The translations under genes and the position numbers were made by a program. A stretch of DNA of 63,364 nucleotides from a virus. The stretch is taken from positions 1 through 63,364 of the IMG/VR virus record IMGVR_UViG_3300033978_000202. The stretch is one strand, 5' to 3'. The notes beneath the pieces are model-generated. The model was not told the DNA's origin. It did not search any database and saw nothing but the letters and a program-made list of their open reading frames with translations. Of the stretch, positions 1,050 to 62,539 are shown piece after piece. Position 1 is the first letter of the stretch; each line of letters starts with the position of its first letter.

Positions 1050-1931
1050 ATGCAAACAGGTATCATCTACAGAAACACAGGAGAGCGTTCACGTGGTCAG
1101 ATAGCGCACTATCACGGAAAGCCATCACCCCTGCATCACGGCAAGACTCCGCACAGGGCTGACATCGCAGGGCTCAAGAAAGCCGAACAGCGCAACGTGC
1201 TGCATTTTGACGGCAGCGAGTACAGCAGCAGGTTCACCATCGGCTTCGAGATTGAGAAAAACAGCCTACACAGGGCAGCGGTGAAAGAGTATCCGCTCCT
1301 GTGCGGTTTCGAGCGTGACGGCTCGTGCGGTTACGAGGCGGTGACCCACATTTTGCCCCTCCTCCCTGCAGGTCAGTGGCGCAACAAGGTCTTCGACCTG
1401 TTCGTACAGGCTGAGAAGATTATTGATGACAGGTACAGCCCCTCAGACAAAAAATGTGGCGGTCACATCACAGTGGCTGTGCAAGGGCTGACAGGTGACG
1501 AGCTCAGGGAGAAAATCCGCAAGAACTGCGGTATCATCCTCGCCCTGTTCCGTAAGCGGCTCGATAACAGCTACTGCAATCACAACAGGAGGCTGCAGGG
1601 TAACAATGAGAGCAGCCACGCAGGTGGGTGGCATCACAAGTATCAGACAGCCCTCGTAAAGGGCAACACGCTTGAGTTTCGCCTCCCCTCACGTGTCGAG
1701 AGTGTCAAGCAAATGATTCGCAGGTACGAGCTGTTTTACGAGGTGGTGAACTTTTCAATCAACAGCCCGAGCGGTAGCCACGATGCACTGCTCAAGCGCA
1801 TCGACCCCATCATCCTGTCAATGTACAACGGAGACAGGGCTAAGGCTGACGAGGTGCTGCGCCTATCAAAGCATTTCCGCAAGTACATCATCACAGGGGA
1901 GAGACATCAGGACATCATCCCCTTTGTCTGA
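1050..1931 (+). CDS. Putative amidoligase (COOH-NH2 ligase, Amidoligase_2-like)
   Basis: This 293-residue protein carries the motif order of the glutamine-synthetase-fold amidoligases. These are GFEIE (65-69), ERDGS plus GYE (88-96), GGH followed by beta strand (137-145), and the late NTLEFRLPSRV (206-216), whose Glu and Arg resemble the family's TxExR motif. The family is expected to form amide bonds between a carboxylate and an amine using ATP. Pfam's note on this family describes neighbours that are glutamine-amidotransferase-like or Aig2 cyclotransferase proteins. Both activities are encoded 1.6 kb downstream at 3525-4625. The substrate is unknown. A 16-bp quasi-palindrome and a hammerhead ribozyme follow the stop codon within 40 bp. 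Confidence 0.75.
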   Translation: MQTGIIYRNTGERSRGQIAHYHGKPSPLHHGKTPHRADIAGLKKAEQRNVLHFDGSEYSSRFTIGFEIEKNSLHRAAVKEYPLLCGFERDGSCGYEAVTHILPLLPAGQWRNKVFDLFVQAEKIIDDRYSPSDKKCGGHITVAVQGLTGDELREKIRKNCGIILALFRKRLDNSYCNHNRRLQGNNESSHAGGWHHKYQTALVKGNTLEFRLPSRVESVKQMIRRYELFYEVVNFSINSPSGSHDALLKRIDPIILSMYNGDRAKADEVLRLSKHFRKYIITGERHQDIIPFV

Positions 1932-1944
1932 GGGGAGAGGGGCG

Positions 1945-1960
1945 GTGTCTTCAAAGACAC
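1945..1960 (+). repeat. 16-bp quasi-palindrome, copy 2
   Basis: Exact GTGTCTTCAAAGACAC, 13 bases after the amidoligase stop and 6 bases before the first hammerhead ribozyme. In RNA it would fold as its own hairpin next to the ribozyme. Confidence 0.9.
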
Positions 1961-1966
1961 TGCTCC

Positions 1967-2019
1967 TGCTGTCTCAGCGTGTGTGCGCTGACTGACGAGC
2001 TCCAAAGAGCGAAACAGCA
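1967..2019 (+). ncRNA. Hammerhead ribozyme, type III
   Basis: The complete hammerhead core is present. Stem III pairs TGCTG (1967-1971) with CAGCA (2015-2019), continued by the required U1972-A2014 pair. C1973 is the cleavage-site base. Stem I is TCAGCG (1974-1979)/CGCTGA (1986-1991) with loop TGTGTG. The core CTGACGA is at 1992-1998. Stem II is GCTC/GAGC (1999-2002/2007-2010) with loop CAAA, and the core closes with GAAA at 2011-2014. The RNA enters and leaves through stem III, hence type III. Predicted self-cleavage after C1973 separates the amidoligase message from the membrane-protein ORF downstream. Every conserved core position matches; activity is not shown. Confidence 0.9.
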
Positions 2020-2040
2020 AACCATAAAAATCTAAACACA

Positions 2041-2274
2041 ATGACAAAGCAAACCATCCTCACCATCATCCTTGCCATCATCCCATCTTATCTGTCGCTG
2101 TTCTGTTCAGCGCAGGGGGCAACCATCCTGCTGTGCGCAACCACAATGATCGGGATTATCATCACAGGTGCGCTCAGTGACGAGCACAAACTGACGGACA
2201 AACTTCGCTTAGCGTGGATACTGCACTTGCTTAGTGTGTGCGGTGCGGTAGCCTTTCACAATATCGCAGGTTAA
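2041..2274 (+). CDS. Small membrane protein between two hammerhead ribozymes
   Basis: This 77-residue protein is almost entirely hydrophobic. One segment is at about 5-22, a second at about 27-45, then a charged turn (DEHKLTDK), then a third at about 57-73. The family is unknown. Size and topology would suit a small holin-like or membrane-targeting protein, but nothing specific supports that. The ORF starts 21 bases after the type III hammerhead and its TAA lies within stem I of the type I hammerhead. Ribozyme cleavage would therefore excise this gene on its own 343-nt RNA. Confidence 0.75.
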   Translation: MTKQTILTIILAIIPSYLSLFCSAQGATILLCATTMIGIIITGALSDEHKLTDKLRLAWILHLLSVCGAVAFHNIAG

Positions 2275-2329
2275 CTGACGAGCTGTGAATCAGCGAAACG
2301 GGAGCTCGCTCCCGTCTTAACCAAATTGT
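2258..2329 (+). ncRNA. Hammerhead ribozyme, type I
   Basis: Stem I inner helix is GGTTAA (2269-2274)/TTAACC (2317-2322). It is extended, across an internal loop of six and two bases, by ACAAT (2258-2262)/ATTGT (2325-2329). Core CTGACGA is at 2275-2281. Stem II is GCTG/CAGC (2282-2285/2291-2294) with loop TGAAT. GAAA is at 2295-2298. Stem III is CGGGAG/CTCCCG (2299-2304/2309-2314) with loop CTCG. U2315 pairs A2298 and C2316 is the cleavage base (GUC). The open ends lie in stem I, making it type I. The stem I internal loop is where known type I ribozymes contact loop II. Predicted cleavage is 20 bases before the next ATG. Confidence 0.93.
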
Positions 2330-2336
2330 AAGCACT

Positions 2337-2882
2337 ATGCGCAAAATCACAGAGCAAATCGTGCGCTCTTTCCTGAGAGGAGAGAATCGCACCATCGGCA
2401 ACAGCCGGAGCGAGAACGGGTCGCTGTTCCTGTTCGACAATCGTATCGCTGAGTACAGAGGCAGCGAGTTATGGATAACCAACGCAGGGTGGACAAGCAA
2501 TACCACAAAGGAGCGGCTCAACGCCCTTCCCGGGGTTCGCATCCATCAGCGCAGAGGCGAGTGGTATCTGAACGACATTGCGTGGGATGGTGGATGGGTT
2601 CACGTGGGGTCGTACACAGGCAGCGTGGATGAGGAGGTGGAATTTGATATGACAAGCAGGTGGATGGACGCAGGGTACAGCAGACCAAATTATGCGGTGT
2701 TCCATACCCATAACGAAGCGGAGCTGAGCCAAATCGAGTTCATCCTGAACGAGGCAGGGATACCAAATCGCAGACACGAGACAGACACAGATGGTCGGTG
2801 GCTGCCCAACCACTTCATCGTGGTGCTGCCTCAAGATATTGACAATTCAGTCGCATTAATCACTAAAAATCTATACCAATGA
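2337..2882 (+). CDS. Conserved phage hypothetical (DUF8033-like N-terminus)
   Basis: This is a 181-residue soluble protein. The first 90 residues (asparagine/tryptophan-rich, with WITNAGWTSNTTKERLNALP near 46-65 and WYLNDIAWDGGWVHV near 76-90) resemble a small domain often seen in Bacteroidetes phage hypothetical proteins. I recall it as DUF8033, but the label needs a search. The second half (about 95-180) is a separate mixed alpha/beta region. The start lies 20 bases after the predicted cleavage site of the type I hammerhead, so its message would begin with a 5'-hydroxyl. It overlaps the next gene by 4 bases. Function is unknown. Confidence 0.75.
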   Translation: MRKITEQIVRSFLRGENRTIGNSRSENGSLFLFDNRIAEYRGSELWITNAGWTSNTTKERLNALPGVRIHQRRGEWYLNDIAWDGGWVHVGSYTGSVDEEVEFDMTSRWMDAGYSRPNYAVFHTHNEAELSQIEFILNEAGIPNRRHETDTDGRWLPNHFIVVLPQDIDNSVALITKNLYQ

Positions 2883-3488: not shown

Positions 3489-3504
3489 GTGTCTTCAAAG
3501 ACAC
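3489..3504 (+). repeat. 16-bp quasi-palindrome, copy 3
   Basis: Exact GTGTCTTCAAAGACAC in the predicted 5' untranslated leader of the glutaminase-cyclotransferase gene, 20 bases before its ATG and about 28 bases after the -7 box. The position would suit an operator or an RNA hairpin. Confidence 0.9.
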
Positions 3505-3524
3505 TGCCCACAAACCTAAACACT

Positions 3525-4625
3525 ATGTGCGTAATCATTATCAAGCAACAGGGTCAGCGCCTACCCAAAGAGGTCGCAAAGACATCAGGCAGGGTCAATC
3601 CTCACGGACTCGGGGTCATTTGGATGGACACGTTTGAGATAACTTATCACAAGTCGAAAGACTACAAGGTGCTCGACACAGAGCGCCCTTTCATTGCCCA
3701 CTTCAGGTACGCCACAGTGGGTGCAATCGGCATCGAGAACACGCACCCATTCCCCTGCGGTGCAAACAAAAATGAGTGGCTGATGATGAACGGCACAATC
3801 TATGGTAAGGGCAACAAGACTGAGTGTGACACGAAGGTGCTCGCTCGGGAGCTCGGCAACAAGCCACGCCACACGTGGAAGAAAGAGCTCGAGCAATACC
3901 CCTGCAGGTTCGTATCAGTCAACGTGCGTAATCGCAGCTACCAAATCTATAACAAAGAGCTGTGGGTTCAGAGGGATGGTATATGGTACAGCAAAGCCAA
4001 CGTGCTCGAGGAGCATCTCGTGGCTGTCTATGGGACGCTCAAGAAGGGTCACGGCAACTACTATCATCACCTGACTGAGAGCAAGTTCATCGGCAAGGGT
4101 GTAACCAAAGACAAGTATCCGCTCATCGTAGAGGGGCTGCCATATTTAATCGAGGAGAAGGGCAAGGGCTACAATGTAGAGGTCGAGGTGTTCAAGGTTG
4201 ACGATGACACGTTCAAAGACCTTGATGCGCTTGAGGGGCATCCAAATTGGTATCAGCGTAAGCAGATACCTGTCAAGCTAAAGGATGGCAAGGTTCTCAC
4301 CTGTTGGGTGTACTTCAATCCGACCAAGACAAGCAAAGGTCGCAAGATGCACAAGTCGTACACAGGTCAGAGCTACCGGCAAGAGCCTGCGAAATCGTGG
4401 CAGCCTGCGTTCACATTTTGGGAGCCACAGCGCACAATTGACGAGCCGATAGTTGACGAGCTGCAGCTACCTGACGACCAAGAGTTCACCGTAGCTGAGG
4501 AGTGCCCTGTCTGTATCAATTGTTTCAACGACCTTGAGCACGACTTCTATGGCAACTACTACTGCAAAGCCTGTGGTGAGTGGTTCAGTGAGAATGAAAT
4601 CATTAAATTCGGATGCGCAAACTAA
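3525..4625 (+). CDS. Class II glutamine amidotransferase - gamma-glutamylcyclotransferase (AIG2-like) - zinc ribbon fusion
   Basis: The protein is 366 residues from the ATG at 3525. That start places Cys2 right after Met, as the N-terminal nucleophile of class II glutaminases requires; a longer GTG start at 3489 would bury it. Domain 1 (1-150) shows HFRYATVG (59-66), NTHPF (72-76) and MMNGTI (87-92), the Ntn-glutaminase signature that releases ammonia from glutamine. Domain 2 (about 163-275) shows VYGTLKKG (168-175) and LDALEGHP (233-240), where Glu237 is the expected catalytic acid of the cyclotransferase fold. The tail has C327, C330, C347 and C350 (CPVC...CKAC), a zinc ribbon. With the amidoligase at 1050 it forms a putative amide-forming and amide-cleaving module. 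The substrate is unknown. Confidence 0.8.
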   Translation: MCVIIIKQQGQRLPKEVAKTSGRVNPHGLGVIWMDTFEITYHKSKDYKVLDTERPFIAHFRYATVGAIGIENTHPFPCGANKNEWLMMNGTIYGKGNKTECDTKVLARELGNKPRHTWKKELEQYPCRFVSVNVRNRSYQIYNKELWVQRDGIWYSKANVLEEHLVAVYGTLKKGHGNYYHHLTESKFIGKGVTKDKYPLIVEGLPYLIEEKGKGYNVEVEVFKVDDDTFKDLDALEGHPNWYQRKQIPVKLKDGKVLTCWVYFNPTKTSKGRKMHKSYTGQSYRQEPAKSWQPAFTFWEPQRTIDEPIVDELQLPDDQEFTVAEECPVCINCFNDLEHDFYGNYYCKACGEWFSENEIIKFGCAN

Positions 4626-13797: not shown

Positions 13798-16700
13798 TTT
13801 TTTTGTTTTTCTTTTCCGTAAATAGTGTTTCCTCCTGATTGCTTAGGCACGTATTCATACATCTCATCTTTTATCTCACGCCTAATTCTTTCTTTTTCTT
13901 TTCTCATCTCGCTTTTCATCTTCTCAATATCATAAAGAACTCCACCCTCACCATACAAATCCTCATACATCTCAGGGTAGTAACGCTTCATATCTTCCTT
14001 GCCAATCTTATTCATCGGCTTGGTCACTTCTGCTTTCTCTAAATCCTTATAGAGTTCTTTGTTTACAATCTTACGGACATCTTTGTAAAGAGGAATGAGC
14101 CCAAGGTTACCCATTATCTCAAGAGGAATACGAATACCTACCTCTTTTTCACTACGCTGTATAGCATCAGCCTGTTTCTTAGGTTCCTCTGTAGCCTTAC
14201 GAATCATCAAATCTAATGTCTTAGCTGATGGACCAAACGGACCAAGCATATTCATAAGCAAGTCTCCCATATCCGTCTTCTTACCTTTCTTCTCAGCAGG
14301 GATAACGGTATACTGAAGAGCATCTTTGTATGGGTCATACTCTCCTTCACGAAGGAAGTCGAGATAGTTTTCATTTACTCTTTCTACCCCATATCCAATC
14401 AGATTCTTGGTTGCGTTACCAAAGTCACGACCTAATAGTAATGATGTAGCAGAAGACAACATACCCTGACCAATCTTTTGCTCGATTGACTTCTCGTCAT
14501 CCTCATCTTCATCAGGCACAAACAGACCAACTAAAGCTGAAGACAAAGCCTGAGTAATCAAAGTATAGGCTGTCATCCTTGTGGCAACCGCAGCGAGCAA
14601 AGCAACGCCTGTCTTTCTTGACAATGTTCCATTACCCATAGCCGCATTGATGCCGGTACGAGCAGTGATATATTCATAGATCAAGAAGCGAGTCATAAAG
14701 TTATTGAAGATGTTGAACCCTCTGATGAGTGCGCTTTGATTCTGCTTAGGCGTACCCTTTAGGATGCCCATAAAAGCATTGTCAGTTGCACCGGTAAGTA
14801 CAGTCTTCTCATCAGCATAGTTCTTAGCTGCGTCAAGAGCTTCTTTGTTTGAAGCCATATACCGCTCGTCATTCTCAGCTATCTTATCAAAGTCAGGCTC
14901 GGCTCCGGTAATCTTTTTGAACTCATTAGCAAAGGCTCCGAACCACATTGGACGCATCACCATCTTATCAGGAGTAGCAATCAACGCATCAGCCATTGTC
15001 TCTACAGCGTTCTGATACTTCTTCAAAGAGATATTATATATCTGCTGTATTTTATTTCTGACATCATTTTGAGCCCTACCACCTTTTACGCCACTTGCTT
15101 GGTTCATTATCGAAGCATCAATAAGTCTTCCACTAAGAGTATCGTGAGGGAATAAACGGTTAGTTTGTTTACTTCCTACGTTGCTCATAATAGTAGCAGC
15201 AGTTGGCGACAATACAACACCCCTATTTTTAAGACCGGCTTTGAAATCTTTTGGAGCAGCTATCATAGCAAACGCTATGTTAGATGATAACTCCCCAACA
15301 AACCTTGGCGCACTTGCAAGTACAGCACGGTAGCCTTGCTTAGACATAAAGTTTACAGCATCATCAAGTAAAGATGTAGATGTAAAGTTATCTGTCAGCA
15401 GGTTGTCAACAGCTTCCTCATAAACTCTTTCAATAGCATTGAAAATGTTTTGCTGTTGTTTGGTTGCGCCTTCCTGCTCCATCAGCTTTGACGTTTCATT
15501 AATGGTCTTACGCCCTGTGCGTATGGGTTCAGTAAGATAGTAATCCATTAATACAAACTTAGCACCACGATTTGCTGAAGCAAACACGTCAAAGTTCAAT
15601 GGAGCAACCTTACCTGTACGTGCAATCAAAGACTTTGCTTTGGTAGAGGGACGCATTGATTCGTTGTAGCTATCAATGAAAGCCACACCGGATATAGCTT
15701 CGTCAGGTCTATGCTCGTGAAGTGTATTCAAGTGTACGTAATTATTCAATGGAGTAATCTTGTCTCCACGGACAATAGCTGCAGTGTATACAGCTTTCTC
15801 ACGTAAGTCCTCATTTACTTTTTGAATAGTCTTGATCGCATTTCTTTCAGCCTCATTGAATGAATCATACAACTTTTGGTTATCTATATTACCATTTGCA
15901 TCTGTGTACTCATCGTAAATTTCCTGAAGCATATCAGCATCACGCTCGCCAAAACTTGACTTACCCTTTCTAATGTGGTCAATTGTTTTCTTCAAGTACT
16001 CTGCTGCCGGATTAACCTGTTTGCTATCAGGGTTTGAATCGTGCTCAAGCTGTACCATATAGGTCATCATCTTGAACTTAGACATCAATGTTTTATTAGC
16101 GTCATTCTTGAATGATTTAGCTACAGCTTCTTGAGCTCTATCTAATTTATTATTTAACTCAGTGACTGCCTTTTGGAATTTAGCCTGCGCATCAGCAGCT
16201 TGAGCAAACAGTGAATTGAATATCTCCTTCGTGTTATAGTTGCCAAACACTTGGTCAATGTAGTACAACGGGTTTCTTCTTATCAACTCAACAAGACCAT
16301 CCTTCTTTGTCAGCCATCCTTTTATCTTGGAATATATTGAACTAAGCTTCAGAGGCTTTGCTTTTTGAACTGCATCATTAAGTGTCTTTGATTTATTGAT
16401 GGCGTTCATACGCTCAACAATAAGCTGAGTATAATGTGGAAGGTATCCGTTGTTTATGTTGTCAATCAAACGCAGCAGGTTCTTTAACTGTGCGTTGTCA
16501 AGACCATATACTGCATCTGTCTTGAGAAGTTTCTTTAACTCACGAGCAAGGTTACGCTCGTCTGCAGTTGGCAATCCTTCAGGATTTAGATCAGCAAGCT
16601 GTGCTGCATCTGCCATCACTTGATTCTCTGCCTCAATCTCAGCCTCACTACGTGGGTCCTTCTGTGTCATTGGAAGAATGGATGACTTATACTTACGCAT

Positions 16701-19700
16701 AATCTCAGCCTCCTCTTCAGTAATCACTTCGTCCTTCACCATATCTCGTATGGTTCCGGCATAGTCAACCTTGCCCTCATCATCAACAAGCTTACCATCA
16801 TAAGAATTGAATCGCTCAGCAAGCTCAGCAGCAAGTGACACATCTGCATCTACTGCATTAAGAATGTCATTAACATCTTTGGTGACAGCATTAATCTCTT
16901 CAAGTTGCAACACAGCCCTACGCTCACCCATCATTGTGACAAGCTTTGTGTATTTTTCAAACACAGCGTCAGGGATTAGGGTTGGCTTGATGGCAAGAAG
17001 GCGTTGCATCAGTGGGCTCAAGCTCTCTGCTATACCTATCTTAGTCTGTGCGTTTCTGCGTGCAGTTGGTAAAGCTTTGTTGATGGTACCAATCTGATCG
17101 GCATAGTTGGCGTTCTTAAACACCTTAGCCATATAGTCTACGAACCTACCTATTGAGTTGGGGTCAAACATATTGACACCACTAAACTTGCTAATGATAG
17201 CTGCCGTTTGCTTGGCTGTAATGAATCCCTTGTCTGTCATAGTACGCAAATACTTAACAAGCTCTCCGCTTGTGCGCACCCATAGCTTAATAGCATCCTT
17301 GGCTCCCTTTGCTTGGTCAGCAAGCTGCTTTTTCAACAGCTCGTACTCTGACATTGTAATCTCATTCACGTCTTTAGTCTCGCCAAAAAGTTTCTGAGGC
17401 TTAGGAGCTGCCTTCTCACGCTTACCAAATCGTTTGCGTATATCACGCACCATCTTCTCACGCTGCGTATCTGAGGCTGTCTCATATACTCGTGAGCCTT
17501 GCAGGTAAGCAATGGCGTTTTGCATTGCTTCCTCATTTGTATTGCCACGCTGCAGAGATTTTCTTACCACACCCTCAAGCTCGGTCATCATCCTGTTGAA
17601 TCCGGGTAGCTCCATCTCCGTAGTATCCTCCGGTTGCGCTTGCGCATCACGTTGTTGAGCAAGGGCGCTGATGGAATCAATTACATCTTGCTCGCTCACA
17701 TTGTTCTGTGCGGCAGCTCTTGTGATAGCTTCTTGCAGTGTGATACCTGTAGCGACAAGAGCCTTCACTGTTTTGATAATGGCTTTCATAACCGGTATAG
17801 CTATGTTGATACCGGCAGTTTCTCTACCAAACTTGGTAAGGTCACCATCTACCTTATCCAAAAATTCTTTTACTCTTTCAAGAGTAGTAGCATCTTTAGT
17901 GTCTGCTGTCATCAGCTCCTCCGTTGTTGGAGCAGCACGTTCTATATCACCTGTATCTGTCTCGTTAATCTCGTAGAACTCTGCAGGTAGAAGACCAATC
18001 TTCTGATCAGCGAACTTAAACTTCTCATATATCTGCTCCTCAATCTTACGAGCCTGTGAGTTAAGTCCTTCTTCACGAAGGGCACGTGCTTGCTGACGCA
18101 GTTCTTTAAGCGCCTCATTCTCTCCTGAGAAGTTAACGTATGAGTTCTGACCACGTGTCTCTGTGGTCATAGCCGCACGTGCAAGTGGTGAGTACATACG
18201 TGCGTGTACGTTCCAAGCGTTCTCCTCGCCTTTAGGACCAAATGAATTGCCGAGCTCAGCGTGTCCAAAGAAATCGTGGATGGCACGGAACACGTCATTC
18301 ACGAGCATAGTCTGCCCGTTCACATCTTTGAATCCTGAATCTCTTAGTAATGGGTTCTCTGCACGCTGCTCTTCTGTAATGGCAGCATCACCAAATCCTG
18401 ACTCGGTAGAAAAGATTTTCATACGCTGATTGTTTCTCAGGTCGTCAATCATCTCCTGAGAATTGGCGTATGGTTCTTCGTTATTTATCTCAACAACATA
18501 ACCGGCATCGAGGAAATCTTGATACTGATCAAGGGTTTCCTTAGCCATCGCTTCGTATGCAGCTCTGACTTGGGGGTCAGTTGGGTTGTGCTGCATAGCA
18601 GCAAACGCATTAGCTATGCGTCTTGCTCTTGCTTCGTCTAACCTTTGCGATCCGTTGTACCTCGGTCTTTTCTTGCCGAAAACTCTTTGATAATATCTAT
18701 CCGCAATTTGCGCAACTCTCTCGAGGGGCTTATTGAAAAGTCTGTTGCCGGGGCTTGGCTTGAAATACTCTCCGCTATCAACGCCTTGGAACTCGGCATC
18801 CCTCCTGACTGCTTCTTCGACTGCTTGAAGAATGTTTTGCCCACTCGGTCCAAGTTCGGACCCTTTAGCTTTAATTCTTCCAAGAATTTTTTTCCTGCTT
18901 GCAACGCCAACTCTTCGGGAATCGACCGGACGGAAGTCTTGTTGTTCATAATTTATTCCTTTTGATTTAAGTAGTTCTACAAATGTACCAATGTTTTTCT
19001 GTAACTGTGGGTCAGCAAAGTCTAATACGTCAATGAATGATACCTCACCTGTCTTCTCGTTGATACTAAAGTCAGTGATACCTGCTTCCTTTAACGCATC
19101 TATTGCACCATCTACATCAGATACTTTAACGCTATACTCATTGGCGTTGTGCGTCTTACCACCCTGTTCGGTATACTGTGCAGCAATGGCTGCCTCCTGC
19201 ACCTGTGGAGCAAATGCACTTACGAGTGCAGCATATTCTTCAGCCTGCTCGATGGTAGCACCCTCAAGGTCTACAGCGTTTGATATTTCTACAATCCTTT
19301 CACCTTTATTATTCTCATACCCACCAATAAACTCAAGGACGTTGGTCTTGATACCAAGTAAACTGCCAATATCTGCAAGTGTTTGCAGGTATCCCTTATA
19401 CGCAGGAGACTCTCTTAATGCTGCAGCTTCTGAGGTAGACCCAACTTGTGTGTTAAAGAATGGAGCTACATTTACCCGTGTCTTTGAAGACACTTTTTGA
19501 AGAGCATCTAATTCGTTAAGAGCTTCATCCACTGCTATGGTTTGATCTCCAATAGTGATGGTCTCTTGATCATCTTCTACAGCAGCGAGCGCTTTGATTA
19601 GCGCATCTTTCCTTTCTTGTTGTTCGGGGCTGAGGACTTTTTCACCCTCTTGGGTAATGACTTCAAGTCCTGTTTTGGGTTCTCCTTGCGCCAACGCTTC

Positions 19701-60495: not shown

Positions 60496-60944
60496 ATACC
60501 CAAAAGATCTATTCGTTCATCCAAACAGGTCAGGTAGGTCTTCATGGCCATAAGCTGAATGCTCAAGAGCGCACGGTTGTTCTTGTCCAACTCATAAAAC
60601 TTAGAGGACTCAACAAAGGATTTGAGCTTATTAAACTTCTCCTCTAACTGATCGTGCTCGTCTTTCAGACGTGTTTTGAAATCCCCCTCCTCAGCTTTAT
60701 CGTAGGTTACATCAAAGATGTAAGGCTTGCATGGATAGTATTCACCTTTTACCCCACGAATGATATAATCTCCGGTAGAGGCAGTCATATTACCCTCAAG
60801 AGTTGGAACAGATAGTTTAATCTCATCTCCGATTAGGTCAATCTTTACTTTATGACTTGACCATTTATTTATTAGTTCTGCATTGTCAAGGCTACCGTTA
60901 AACTGAATAGCTTCGATGATTACGGGTTTCTTTTTGTATCTCAT
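60492..60944 (-). CDS. PGDYG-like domain fused to an Acb2-like (anti-CBASS) domain
   Basis: This is a 150-residue protein. Residues 1-81 (KKPVIIEAIQF, STGDYIIRGVKGEYYPCKPY) are the small PGDYG-type domain common in phages. Residues 90-147 (RLKDEHDQLEEKFNKLKSF, SSKFYELD, LLSIQLMAMKTYLTCLDERI) match the helical pattern of Acb2/T4 Vs.4 proteins. These form hexamers that sequester cyclic oligonucleotide signals of CBASS and Thoeris-type defences. The fold call is by eye. The gene lies between GroEL and GroES, overlapping GroEL by 4 bases, and would be expressed with them. Confidence 0.7.
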   Translation of the reverse strand: MRYKKKPVIIEAIQFNGSLDNAELINKWSSHKVKIDLIGDEIKLSVPTLEGNMTASTGDYIIRGVKGEYYPCKPYIFDVTYDKAEEGDFKTRLKDEHDQLEEKFNKLKSFVESSKFYELDKNNRALLSIQLMAMKTYLTCLDERIDLLGI

Positions 60945-62539
60945 TTGGTTTCGTATGAGCGTGCCATTGTTATGATGGCATTGGTGGATAATATGGTGGT
61001 CGCTACGCTGATGGCGTTCTGTAGTGCTGAGCGTGTCACCTTCAGTGGGTCAATCACACCCATCTTGATTAGATCGCCCATCTGCTTGGTCTTTACATTG
61101 AGACCCACTCCCTCTTGAATGTCATGGGTATAATGGTCTTCAGCCTTCAGTCCTGCGTTCTCAAGGATCTGCTCAAGGGGCGCTTTAAGTGCTGTCTGCA
61201 GTATCTGTGCTGCTATGTCCTGCTCCTCTTGGGTGATCTCACCCAAAAGGTCGAAGACCTCAACTTCGTACAAGGCCTTACCACCACCGGGCAGGATACC
61301 CTCCTCAAGTGCGGAACGCACAGCATGCACCGCATCGTCAACCCTGTCGTACAACTCTTTCTGCTCAAGGTCAGTGTTTCCACCTACGTAGATCACTCCA
61401 ATGCCTCCCGTCAGGGAGGCAATGCGAGACAATATGTGATCCTTGTCAGCCTTCTTCTTAGCCACAGCATGCGCCTCCCAAAGCTGAGCCACACGCTCGT
61501 CAACCTTTTCAGGTTGGAGCTTGAGGTCAGATTTGATGATGATCGTGCTGTCTCTACCAACTATCACCTTGGCGGCATGGCCCAAGTCAGCGTAGCTGAT
61601 TTGACTCAGGTCATCACCCGTTTTCTCGCTGAAGTATGTCGCCCCTACTGACACCGCTAAGTCCTGCATCAGCTCATGCTGCTTGTACCCAAAGCTCGGA
61701 GGCTGTATCGCACAAAGCTTAAGGTTGTTCTTCATTACGTTAGCCGCAAGGGTGTTCACCACGTTTACGTGGCAGTTCGATACTATCAACAACTTCTTAC
61801 CCTCTTGGATAATTGGTTTCAATACCCCCTCGATCTGAAGAATGTTCCCAATCTCAATGTCAGCCACGAGCACCATCACGTCCTCAAACACACACTCGTC
61901 CCGACTCTGATCGTTAATGAACAGTGGGCTCATATACCCCCTGTCAATCTTTAGACCCTTGGTGGTCTCGGCATACGTCTCAGCCGTCTGACTCCGCTCC
62001 ACGGTAACAATCCCACTACGCCCCACGTCCTTATACACCTCGGCAATAATCCTACCTATCTCACGGTCATTGTTCGCAGAGATGGAGGCAATGTCCACAA
62101 GCATTGAGCTCGAGACTTTCTTGGCACGCCTGCGCAGCTTGTCCACCACCTTGCCACTTATGTCCACCATATTGCGTAGCACCTCGGTGCGGTTATGGTG
62201 TGGTTTAATGTGGCTGATGCCACCCTCCACAAGCGCCTCAGTCAAGACAATGGCTGTAGTCGTACCATCACCGGCAAGTGTTGCCGTACGATCCGCTGCC
62301 TCCTTCATCATCTTAACCGCAAGGTTCTCGACAGGGTCAATTAAGTCGACTGCTTTAGCCACGGTCACACCGTCTTTAGTGACGGTGATTCCGTGGGTAT
62401 GTTGGGGGGATTCTATAAGTACTGTATTACCGGAAGGTCCTAACGTGCTTTTTACCGCACCTGAAATCTTTTTGATACCGGAAACCAATTTAGCCTGCCC
62501 TTCTTCTGAAAAGAACAGTTCTTTAGGAGAGTATTCCAT
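60941..62539 (-). CDS. groEL: GroEL chaperonin
   Basis: At 532 residues it is close to full bacterial length. ATPase motifs are intact: STLGPSGNTV (31-40), TKDGVTVAK (54-62), GDGTTTA (90-96) and the catalytic Asp of VDDAVHAV near residue 400, followed by EEGILPGGG. The apical domain is divergent (for example PSFGYKQHELMQDLA instead of the usual PGFGDRRK). The usual Gly/Met-rich C-terminal tail is absent; the protein ends RSYETK. It is the first gene of a four-gene operon with its own consensus promoter. Confidence 0.93.
   Translation of the reverse strand: MEYSPKELFFSEEGQAKLVSGIKKISGAVKSTLGPSGNTVLIESPQHTHGITVTKDGVTVAKAVDLIDPVENLAVKMMKEAADRTATLAGDGTTTAIVLTEALVEGGISHIKPHHNRTEVLRNMVDISGKVVDKLRRRAKKVSSSMLVDIASISANNDREIGRIIAEVYKDVGRSGIVTVERSQTAETYAETTKGLKIDRGYMSPLFINDQSRDECVFEDVMVLVADIEIGNILQIEGVLKPIIQEGKKLLIVSNCHVNVVNTLAANVMKNNLKLCAIQPPSFGYKQHELMQDLAVSVGATYFSEKTGDDLSQISYADLGHAAKVIVGRDSTIIIKSDLKLQPEKVDERVAQLWEAHAVAKKKADKDHILSRIASLTGGIGVIYVGGNTDLEQKELYDRVDDAVHAVRSALEEGILPGGGKALYEVEVFDLLGEITQEEQDIAAQILQTALKAPLEQILENAGLKAEDHYTHDIQEGVGLNVKTKQMGDLIKMGVIDPLKVTRSALQNAISVATTILSTNAIITMARSYETK

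Follow-up and report, generated by a model that had tools for sequence, protein, structure and literature searches.

What does a phage gain from two hammerhead ribozymes of different type placed around one small gene? The question is raised by a virus record of 63,364 bases (the window, by which we mean this whole stretch), in which a type III and a type I motif flank an ORF for a short hydrophobic protein (Table 1). The original prediction described the pair as a processing cassette that would release the gene as an RNA able to circularise.

Hammerheads around phage genes have been described before. In 2011 Perreault et al. found clustered hammerheads of mixed type flanking single genes or short gene blocks in prophages (PMC3088659). 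In the parts of that report used here, the phage clusters cleaved in vitro and in E. coli, single-gene mRNAs were suggested as the outcome of gene-flanking hammerheads, and spliced or circular products were sought and not detected (PMC3088659). The window pair resembles these clusters in having several hammerheads of mixed type around genes, and it belongs to this already published kind of gene-flanking phage hammerheads. The present case differs, as far as the same parts of the report go, in that one site is tracked across some 87 relatives, with a hairpin abutting the type III motif and with minihelices replacing the hammerhead in some of these phages (PMC3088659). Neither a conserved module of hairpin and type III motif at one homologous site nor a replacement by minihelices was found in the open-access literature. 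The same parts of that report describe HHphage of the haloviruses HF1/HF2, which belongs to a polycistronic phage transcript, precedes a start codon by 13 nt and has a 5' end mapped at its cleavage site (PMC3088659). It differs from the window pair in being a single motif with a variant core in an archaeal virus. What hammerheads do in bacteria and phages has been described as an open question (PMC6155905).

The phage and the gene neighbourhood

The host very probably belongs to the Flavobacteriia, judging from the relatives of the large terminase. The closest of these is from an uncultured podovirus from Manatee Spring (77%), followed by Flavobacterium elemo phages (44%) and Cellulophaga phages (36-39%). 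A search of bacterial genomes with the upstream gene was uninformative as to host and gave one partial match, in an Erythrobacter MAG. The upstream gene had no Pfam match; its conserved motifs presumably place it near the amidoligase family, which they resemble. This amidoligase-like gene lies near a fusion of class II amidotransferase and gamma-glutamyl cyclotransferase (3489-4625), and a phage GroEL is found at 60941-62539 of the window.

Table 1. Positions of the genes and RNA elements discussed in the text
Feature	Record	Positions	Strand	Basis or remark
Upstream gene, 293 aa	window	1050..1931	+	conserved type III cut site anchored at its 3' end
Strong hairpin, GGGGCGGUGUC UUCAAA GACACUGCUCC	window	1939..1966	+	abuts the type III motif with zero gap; z -4.9
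Type III hammerhead ribozyme	window	1967..2019	+	match to RF00008; covariation in the lineage
Gene for 77-aa hydrophobic (membrane) protein	window	2041..2274	+	ORF
Type I hammerhead ribozyme	window	core and stems 2269-2322; outer stem I helix 2258-2262/2325-2329	+	perfect core
Predicted released RNA, 343 nt	window	1974..2316	+	sequence, two predicted cuts
Downstream gene, 181 aa, Pfam Kyano_Gp96	window	2337..2882	+	predicted mRNA start is a 5'-OH at 2317
Minihelices at gene boundaries	L192	1348, 1638, 2398, 3871		pattern
Minihelices at gene boundaries	L194	1599, 2930, 3870		pattern
Minihelices at gene boundaries	L195	2159, 2897, 3870, 5520		pattern
Minihelices at gene boundaries	L156	3925, 4183		pattern
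Minihelix at gene boundary	L207	3977		pattern
Hammerheads, type III and type I	Flavobacterium phage elemoA_7-9A (L236)	19080-19140 (III), 17288-17349 (I)	-	cultured host
Hammerheads, type III and type I	Flavobacterium phage elemoD	12320-12380 (III), 14138-14199 (I)		cultured host
Type I hammerhead	Cellulophaga phage phi18:3	21902-21960		cultured host

Two hammerheads of different type

The type III motif has a conserved core of the form CUGANGA...GAAA, a UH cleavage site, closed stems I and II and an open stem III. Stem III is formed by 1967-1972 and 2014-2019 and stem I by 1974-1991; the core CUGACGA (1992-1998) is followed by stem II (1999-2010) and then GAAA. The predicted cut falls between C1973 and U1974, and in fold prediction the hammerhead is the minimum-energy structure of its region. 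The type I motif has the conserved core with stems II and III closed and stem I open. Its stems comprise 6, 4 and 7 bp (17 bp in total), its outer stem I helix is ACAAU/AUUGU, and its predicted cut lies between C2316 and U2317. The coordinates, types and cut sites originally assigned to both motifs were correct.

Both motifs share the core, the stem order and the cleavage dinucleotide of the Rfam families RF00008 (Hammerhead_3) and RF00163 (Hammerhead_1), but score below the gathering thresholds of these families. In the comparison with Rfam covariance models that had been proposed as a check, the type III motif was found by RF00008 (44.4 bits, E 1.9e-6 over the whole window) and the type I motif weakly by RF00163 (17.8 bits, E 0.038 in 101 bases), both under gathering. 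A default Rfam scan of the window reported no hammerhead because the type III score lies under the curated gathering score of 48.5 bits. Relatives with the same covarying type III fold also reach 41-46 bits against Rfam; for this lineage the threshold is thus a strict one, and passing it does not define the type. The Rfam scores of further type I motifs from phages are likewise modest (22.9-31.8 bits, under the gathering score of 34).

Our own hammerhead descriptor gave exactly two matches in the window, the type III and the type I motif. Sixty dinucleotide-preserving shuffles of the window gave 2 matches in total at a score of at least 13, a threshold looser than either real motif (both 17). 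The two sole matches, whose cuts lie 343 nt apart on the coding strand, are not a product of chance. The models R1 and R2 include the window's own motifs and their E-values on the window are thus not independent. The two Rfam scores under gathering would fit chance or decayed look-alikes that do not cleave in vivo; the shuffles, at their looser threshold, and the strong covariation described below make that reading hardly credible.

The conserved element is a predicted cut site

Relatives were fetched from viral contigs with the upstream protein as guide. Of the 87 relatives of the tree set, 77 have a type III hammerhead immediately after the upstream-gene stop codon; the predicted cut falls 21-66 nt beyond that stop. 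Ten have no hammerhead at the site that our own descriptors recognise; five of these carry a tRNA-like minihelix and five neither motif. Among 28 distinct type III motifs of the lineage (several per genome), 92.4% of the alignment cells are paired and 13 of 17 pairs have changed on both sides; the covariation score is 0.664, as against 0.218 when shuffled and at most 0.108 with slid partners. Failure of the stems to be conserved in homologous phages had been named as grounds for giving up the original prediction, and for type III this covariation demonstrates their conservation.

The surroundings of the site are variable. Next to the type III motif, 31 of 63 relatives have a gene for a short protein with one or more predicted TM segments and the others have a different gene, and hammerhead copy number and type differ between relatives. 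A tight bracket around one gene is formed by two type III motifs in 9 of these 63 relatives and by type III and type I in the window phage only. L150 has a homologue of the 77-codon gene (35% identity) with no ribozyme directly before it and a variant type III, not a type I, behind it. No diverged homologue of the type I motif was found at exactly its place, where the only match was an identical copy in a near-identical contig; in L128, L132, L133 and L142 similar type I motifs are found at least one gene farther downstream. Because the following gene and the second ribozyme vary and the type III site is kept, an excision cassette is not the conserved unit, and on this point the original prediction, which is partly supported, fails. 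On the sequence comparison, what is conserved is the cut site at the end of the upstream gene.

Variation of this kind might be expected of neutral or selfish passengers, that is, of hammerheads that spread among intergenic sites with gene cassettes and bring the phage no benefit. Copy number and type vary among relatives, and some cores are altered (A9 to U in L197, or U.U at 10.1/11.1). A site kept in 77 of 87 with compensatory stem changes and a conserved adjoining hairpin is not what such passengers would leave, nor is the takeover by another RNA element, instead of plain loss, in five relatives. We consider passengers very improbable.

Several variants deserve mention. Type III motifs with U.U for G-C at 10.1/11.1 occur in L124 (8733), L125 (5572), L127 (4931), L139 (6613) and L150 (3953); the variant recurs in several lineages (7/66 at the conserved site) and may be a functional form of the core. 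The type III motif behind the upstream-gene stop of L197 is perfect except for the change of A9 to U. In L211 the hammerhead's usual place behind the upstream gene is taken by an Rfam DUF805b RNA (RF02914, 39.3 bits, 3920-3952).

The released RNA and its possible circular form

The two predicted cuts could free an RNA with the whole ORF, in length and content as first proposed. Hammerhead cleavage leaves a 5'-OH and a 2',3'-cyclic phosphate, and the ends originally assigned to the released RNA agree with this established chemistry. Fold analysis of the closed circle bears out the expectation that neither original ribozyme would re-form after ring closure. On paper the circle allows a hybrid type II core, 5 kcal/mol less stable than the minimum fold. 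That this core would be an efficient hammerhead was rejected, since its stem II has only 3 bp and it is not the minimum fold. The locus also lacks the make-up of a retrozyme-like circRNA element, in which the ribozymes are usually identical, can ligate as well and belong to a repeat or mobile unit: the two hammerheads are of different types at one locus, there is no repeat unit and neither original ribozyme re-forms across the junction.

The RtcB-type ligation to a circular coding RNA put forward in the original prediction gained no positive support, no RtcB gene was found in the virus record, and circularisation is unsupported. An excision cassette would nevertheless be conceivable if an RtcB-like host enzyme or a reverse hammerhead reaction closed the freed 77-codon RNA to a stable circular coding RNA. 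Both ends would have ligatable chemistry, the circle would persist since the original ribozymes cannot re-form in it, a short TM protein often stands next to the type III motif (31/63) and nine other relatives have a tight bracket of one gene between two type III motifs. Set against this, the bracket and its cargo vary, and the type III site is kept with unrelated next genes and also without a nearby second ribozyme. A linear 77-codon mRNA needs no circle, the record lacks RtcB, and the part of the 2011 report cited above found no circular products in comparable clusters (PMC3088659). We therefore judge an excision cassette quite improbable.

A hairpin before the type III motif

Between the stop codon and the type III motif, 62 of 66 distinct relatives have a strong hairpin, with z below -2. 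The abutting hairpins have a median of -17 kcal/mol and a median z of -4.9, and the gap to the type III motif is usually 0-1 nt. Their sequence differs between lineages. Other phages too have a hairpin ahead of their type III motifs; no such signal is seen in the 40 nt that follow type I motifs. Related hairpins (TCCGTT..AACGGA) are put to two uses in L128-L142: they form stem III of type I motifs, and they precede type III motifs.

The core of the window hairpin is a palindrome of 16 bases, GTGTCTTYRAAGACAC, with 8 copies in the window (229, 1945, 3489, 11943, 19478, 34356, 41454 and 58316) and 0 in shuffles. The copies lie between and inside genes and also occur without ribozymes, and many are present in relatives such as L134. 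A hairpin exclusive to ribozymes was rejected on account of this dispersal. Since GTGTCTTYRAAGACAC is found without ribozymes, even within genes, part of the recurrence of the hairpin has another cause, and in the window lineage the hairpin may have a second role besides the proposed one in mRNA end formation. GTGTCTTYRAAGACAC could act as an RNA hairpin or as a DNA binding site.

Positions at gene boundaries

The statement in the original prediction that phage hammerheads are usually single was wrong: 25 of the 121 loci of the viral sample hold 2-8 hammerheads, and several stand together in the 2011 clusters, at least in the parts of that report used here (PMC3088659). A type III followed by a type I at less than 700 nt was seen in 9 cases. 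A rule that type III always comes first in clusters was rejected, as 7 of 114 neighbour pairs, and 1 of the 45 that are less than 700 nt apart, have the order I-then-III. The phage type III forms of this study differ from the Rfam families in having UGNGUG as loop I and an A-rich loop II of 4 nt.

Of 126 type I motifs in the viral loci, 93 have a core that overlaps the end of a stop codon or starts no more than 6 nt from it. In 23 type I motifs the UGA of CUGANGA is itself the stop codon of the preceding gene (viral loci L002-L150). In the window the UAA stop of the 77-codon gene lies inside stem I of the type I motif. The type III cores stand a median of 57 nt behind the stop, which leaves room for the hairpin. 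An AUG follows both types at a median of 22-24 nt, and the 77-codon gene starts 21 nt behind the type III motif. The type III motif of elemoA stands ahead of the first leftward gene in the annotation, and no gene on the same strand precedes it; separating genes can therefore not be its sole role. It would there only reset the 5' end.

The type I region alone is predicted to prefer an inactive fold (-25.7 as against -20.0 kcal/mol for the active one), a prediction that ignores tertiary contacts and concerns one phage. In the inactive fold the ORF end (UUUCACA) pairs with loop II (window 2251-2330); the active fold is the predicted minimum if the transcript starts at 2268. The pairing of the ORF end with loop II suggests a possible coupling to translation.

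The hammerheads could on this ground be regulated switches, with ribosomes at the stop codon blocking or unmasking the type I core and the type III leader body regulating translation of the next gene. Stop codons do lie within type I motifs, the type III body stands about 20 nt ahead of the AUG in most cases, and in the fold model the upstream coding strand sequesters loop II and the inactive fold vanishes if that strand is covered. Overlap with stop codons, however, would also result from tight packing alone, and the alternative fold comes from one phage only and leaves out the tertiary contacts that normally stabilise hammerheads. Regulated switches thus seem unlikely to us.

tRNA-like minihelices in place of the hammerhead

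L156, L192, L194, L195 and L207 have a tRNA-like minihelix in place of a hammerhead at the conserved site. Minihelices of this kind consist of an acceptor stem of 5-8 bp and a T stem of 4-7 bp with a TTCGANT loop. In these five relatives the acceptor stem has 5-7 bp, the spacer is 10-11 nt, usually with ATGGT, and the T arm is followed by a leader and an AUG. ARAGORN called no tRNA on the minihelices, and Rfam neither recognised them as tRNA nor matched them to any family. The swap between hammerhead and minihelix requires three changes, two of them forced by well-supported branches (at least two to three separate changes), on a quick single-gene tree of the 87 relatives that has some long branches. 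The exchange of the hammerhead for a tRNA-like element at one and the same position speaks for selection on cleavage itself.

The covariation score of the minihelices is 0.911, as against 0.201 shuffled, for 19 examples chosen by descriptor. The alignments of type I motifs and minihelices were picked by a descriptor that requires pairing, which in part predetermines their percentage paired. Scanning viral contigs with a pattern gave at least 61 minihelices outside ARAGORN tRNAs, a few of them from contigs already sampled. Among the minihelix matches listed, at least 55 are not within an ORF and at least 41 have an AUG within 60 nt. Many of L254-L372 also have minihelices at gene boundaries.

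In sequence the minihelices have the form of an RNase P substrate, an acceptor stem stacked on a T stem-loop with about 12 bp together. At the 3' end many have ACTA in place of RCCA. RNase P cleaves model hairpins of acceptor/T-arm make-up (PMC11143913), and by analogy the phage minihelices may be cleaved as well.

A model of mRNA punctuation

The common denominator of type III hammerhead, type I hammerhead and minihelix is a cut between genes, and the window pair is for that reason read as mRNA punctuation. The pair probably serves to cut a polycistronic phage transcript at gene boundaries into separate mRNAs. This reading is supported by the covariation, the kept site, the abutting hairpin, the stop-codon position of type I and the replacement by minihelices, and the motifs and their positions are likewise evident in the sequences. 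The stabler predicted inactive fold of type I, the position of the elemoA type III motif, the dispersed palindrome and the 10 of 87 relatives without a hammerhead count against it.

Under the punctuation model the RNA would cut itself, and the upstream, 77-codon and downstream genes would each obtain an mRNA of their own with no need for individual promoters and terminators. The type III cut together with the hairpin would give the upstream mRNA a hairpin-capped 3' end with a tail of about 6-7 nt and a 2',3'-cyclic phosphate. The type III body would remain on the next mRNA as its 5' leader, about 20 nt ahead of the AUG. At the 77-codon stop the stem III hairpin of type I would become the 3' end of the 77-codon mRNA, and type I would need no extra hairpin because stem III fills that place. 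The downstream gene would receive a short 5'-OH leader.

RNA with a 5'-OH end should escape decay that depends on a 5'-monophosphate, and a hairpin with a cyclic phosphate should hinder 3' exonucleases. With ends that resist decay in this way, the likely benefit would be mRNA stability set gene by gene, as general knowledge of bacterial mRNA decay suggests. We infer both cleavage in the cell and a benefit through mRNA end formation.

Polycistronic mitochondrial transcripts are punctuated by tRNAs, which are processed by RNase P and RNase Z. The phage arrangement is similar in that structured cut sites stand between the genes of one transcript. It differs in that most phages here use self-cleaving ribozymes, and the tRNA-like elements, of which the cleavage is putative, lack D and anticodon arms. 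A general punctuation code of phages is possible and is put forward tentatively, as something short of probable. In such a code hairpin-capped type III motifs, stop-codon type I motifs and minihelices processed by host RNase P or RNase Z would be interchangeable and would yield stable single-gene mRNAs.

Implications for phage RNA

The site in about 87 relatives separates what is kept, the cut at the gene end with the hairpin directly before it, from what is variable, the cargo and the second ribozyme. The role of the hammerheads is testable in phages that carry such motifs and have cultured hosts, namely elemoA and elemoD on Flavobacterium sp. BAL314 and phi18:3 on Cellulophaga baltica #18. 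If the punctuation code holds true, the minihelices would be a widespread and hitherto undescribed class of phage RNA.
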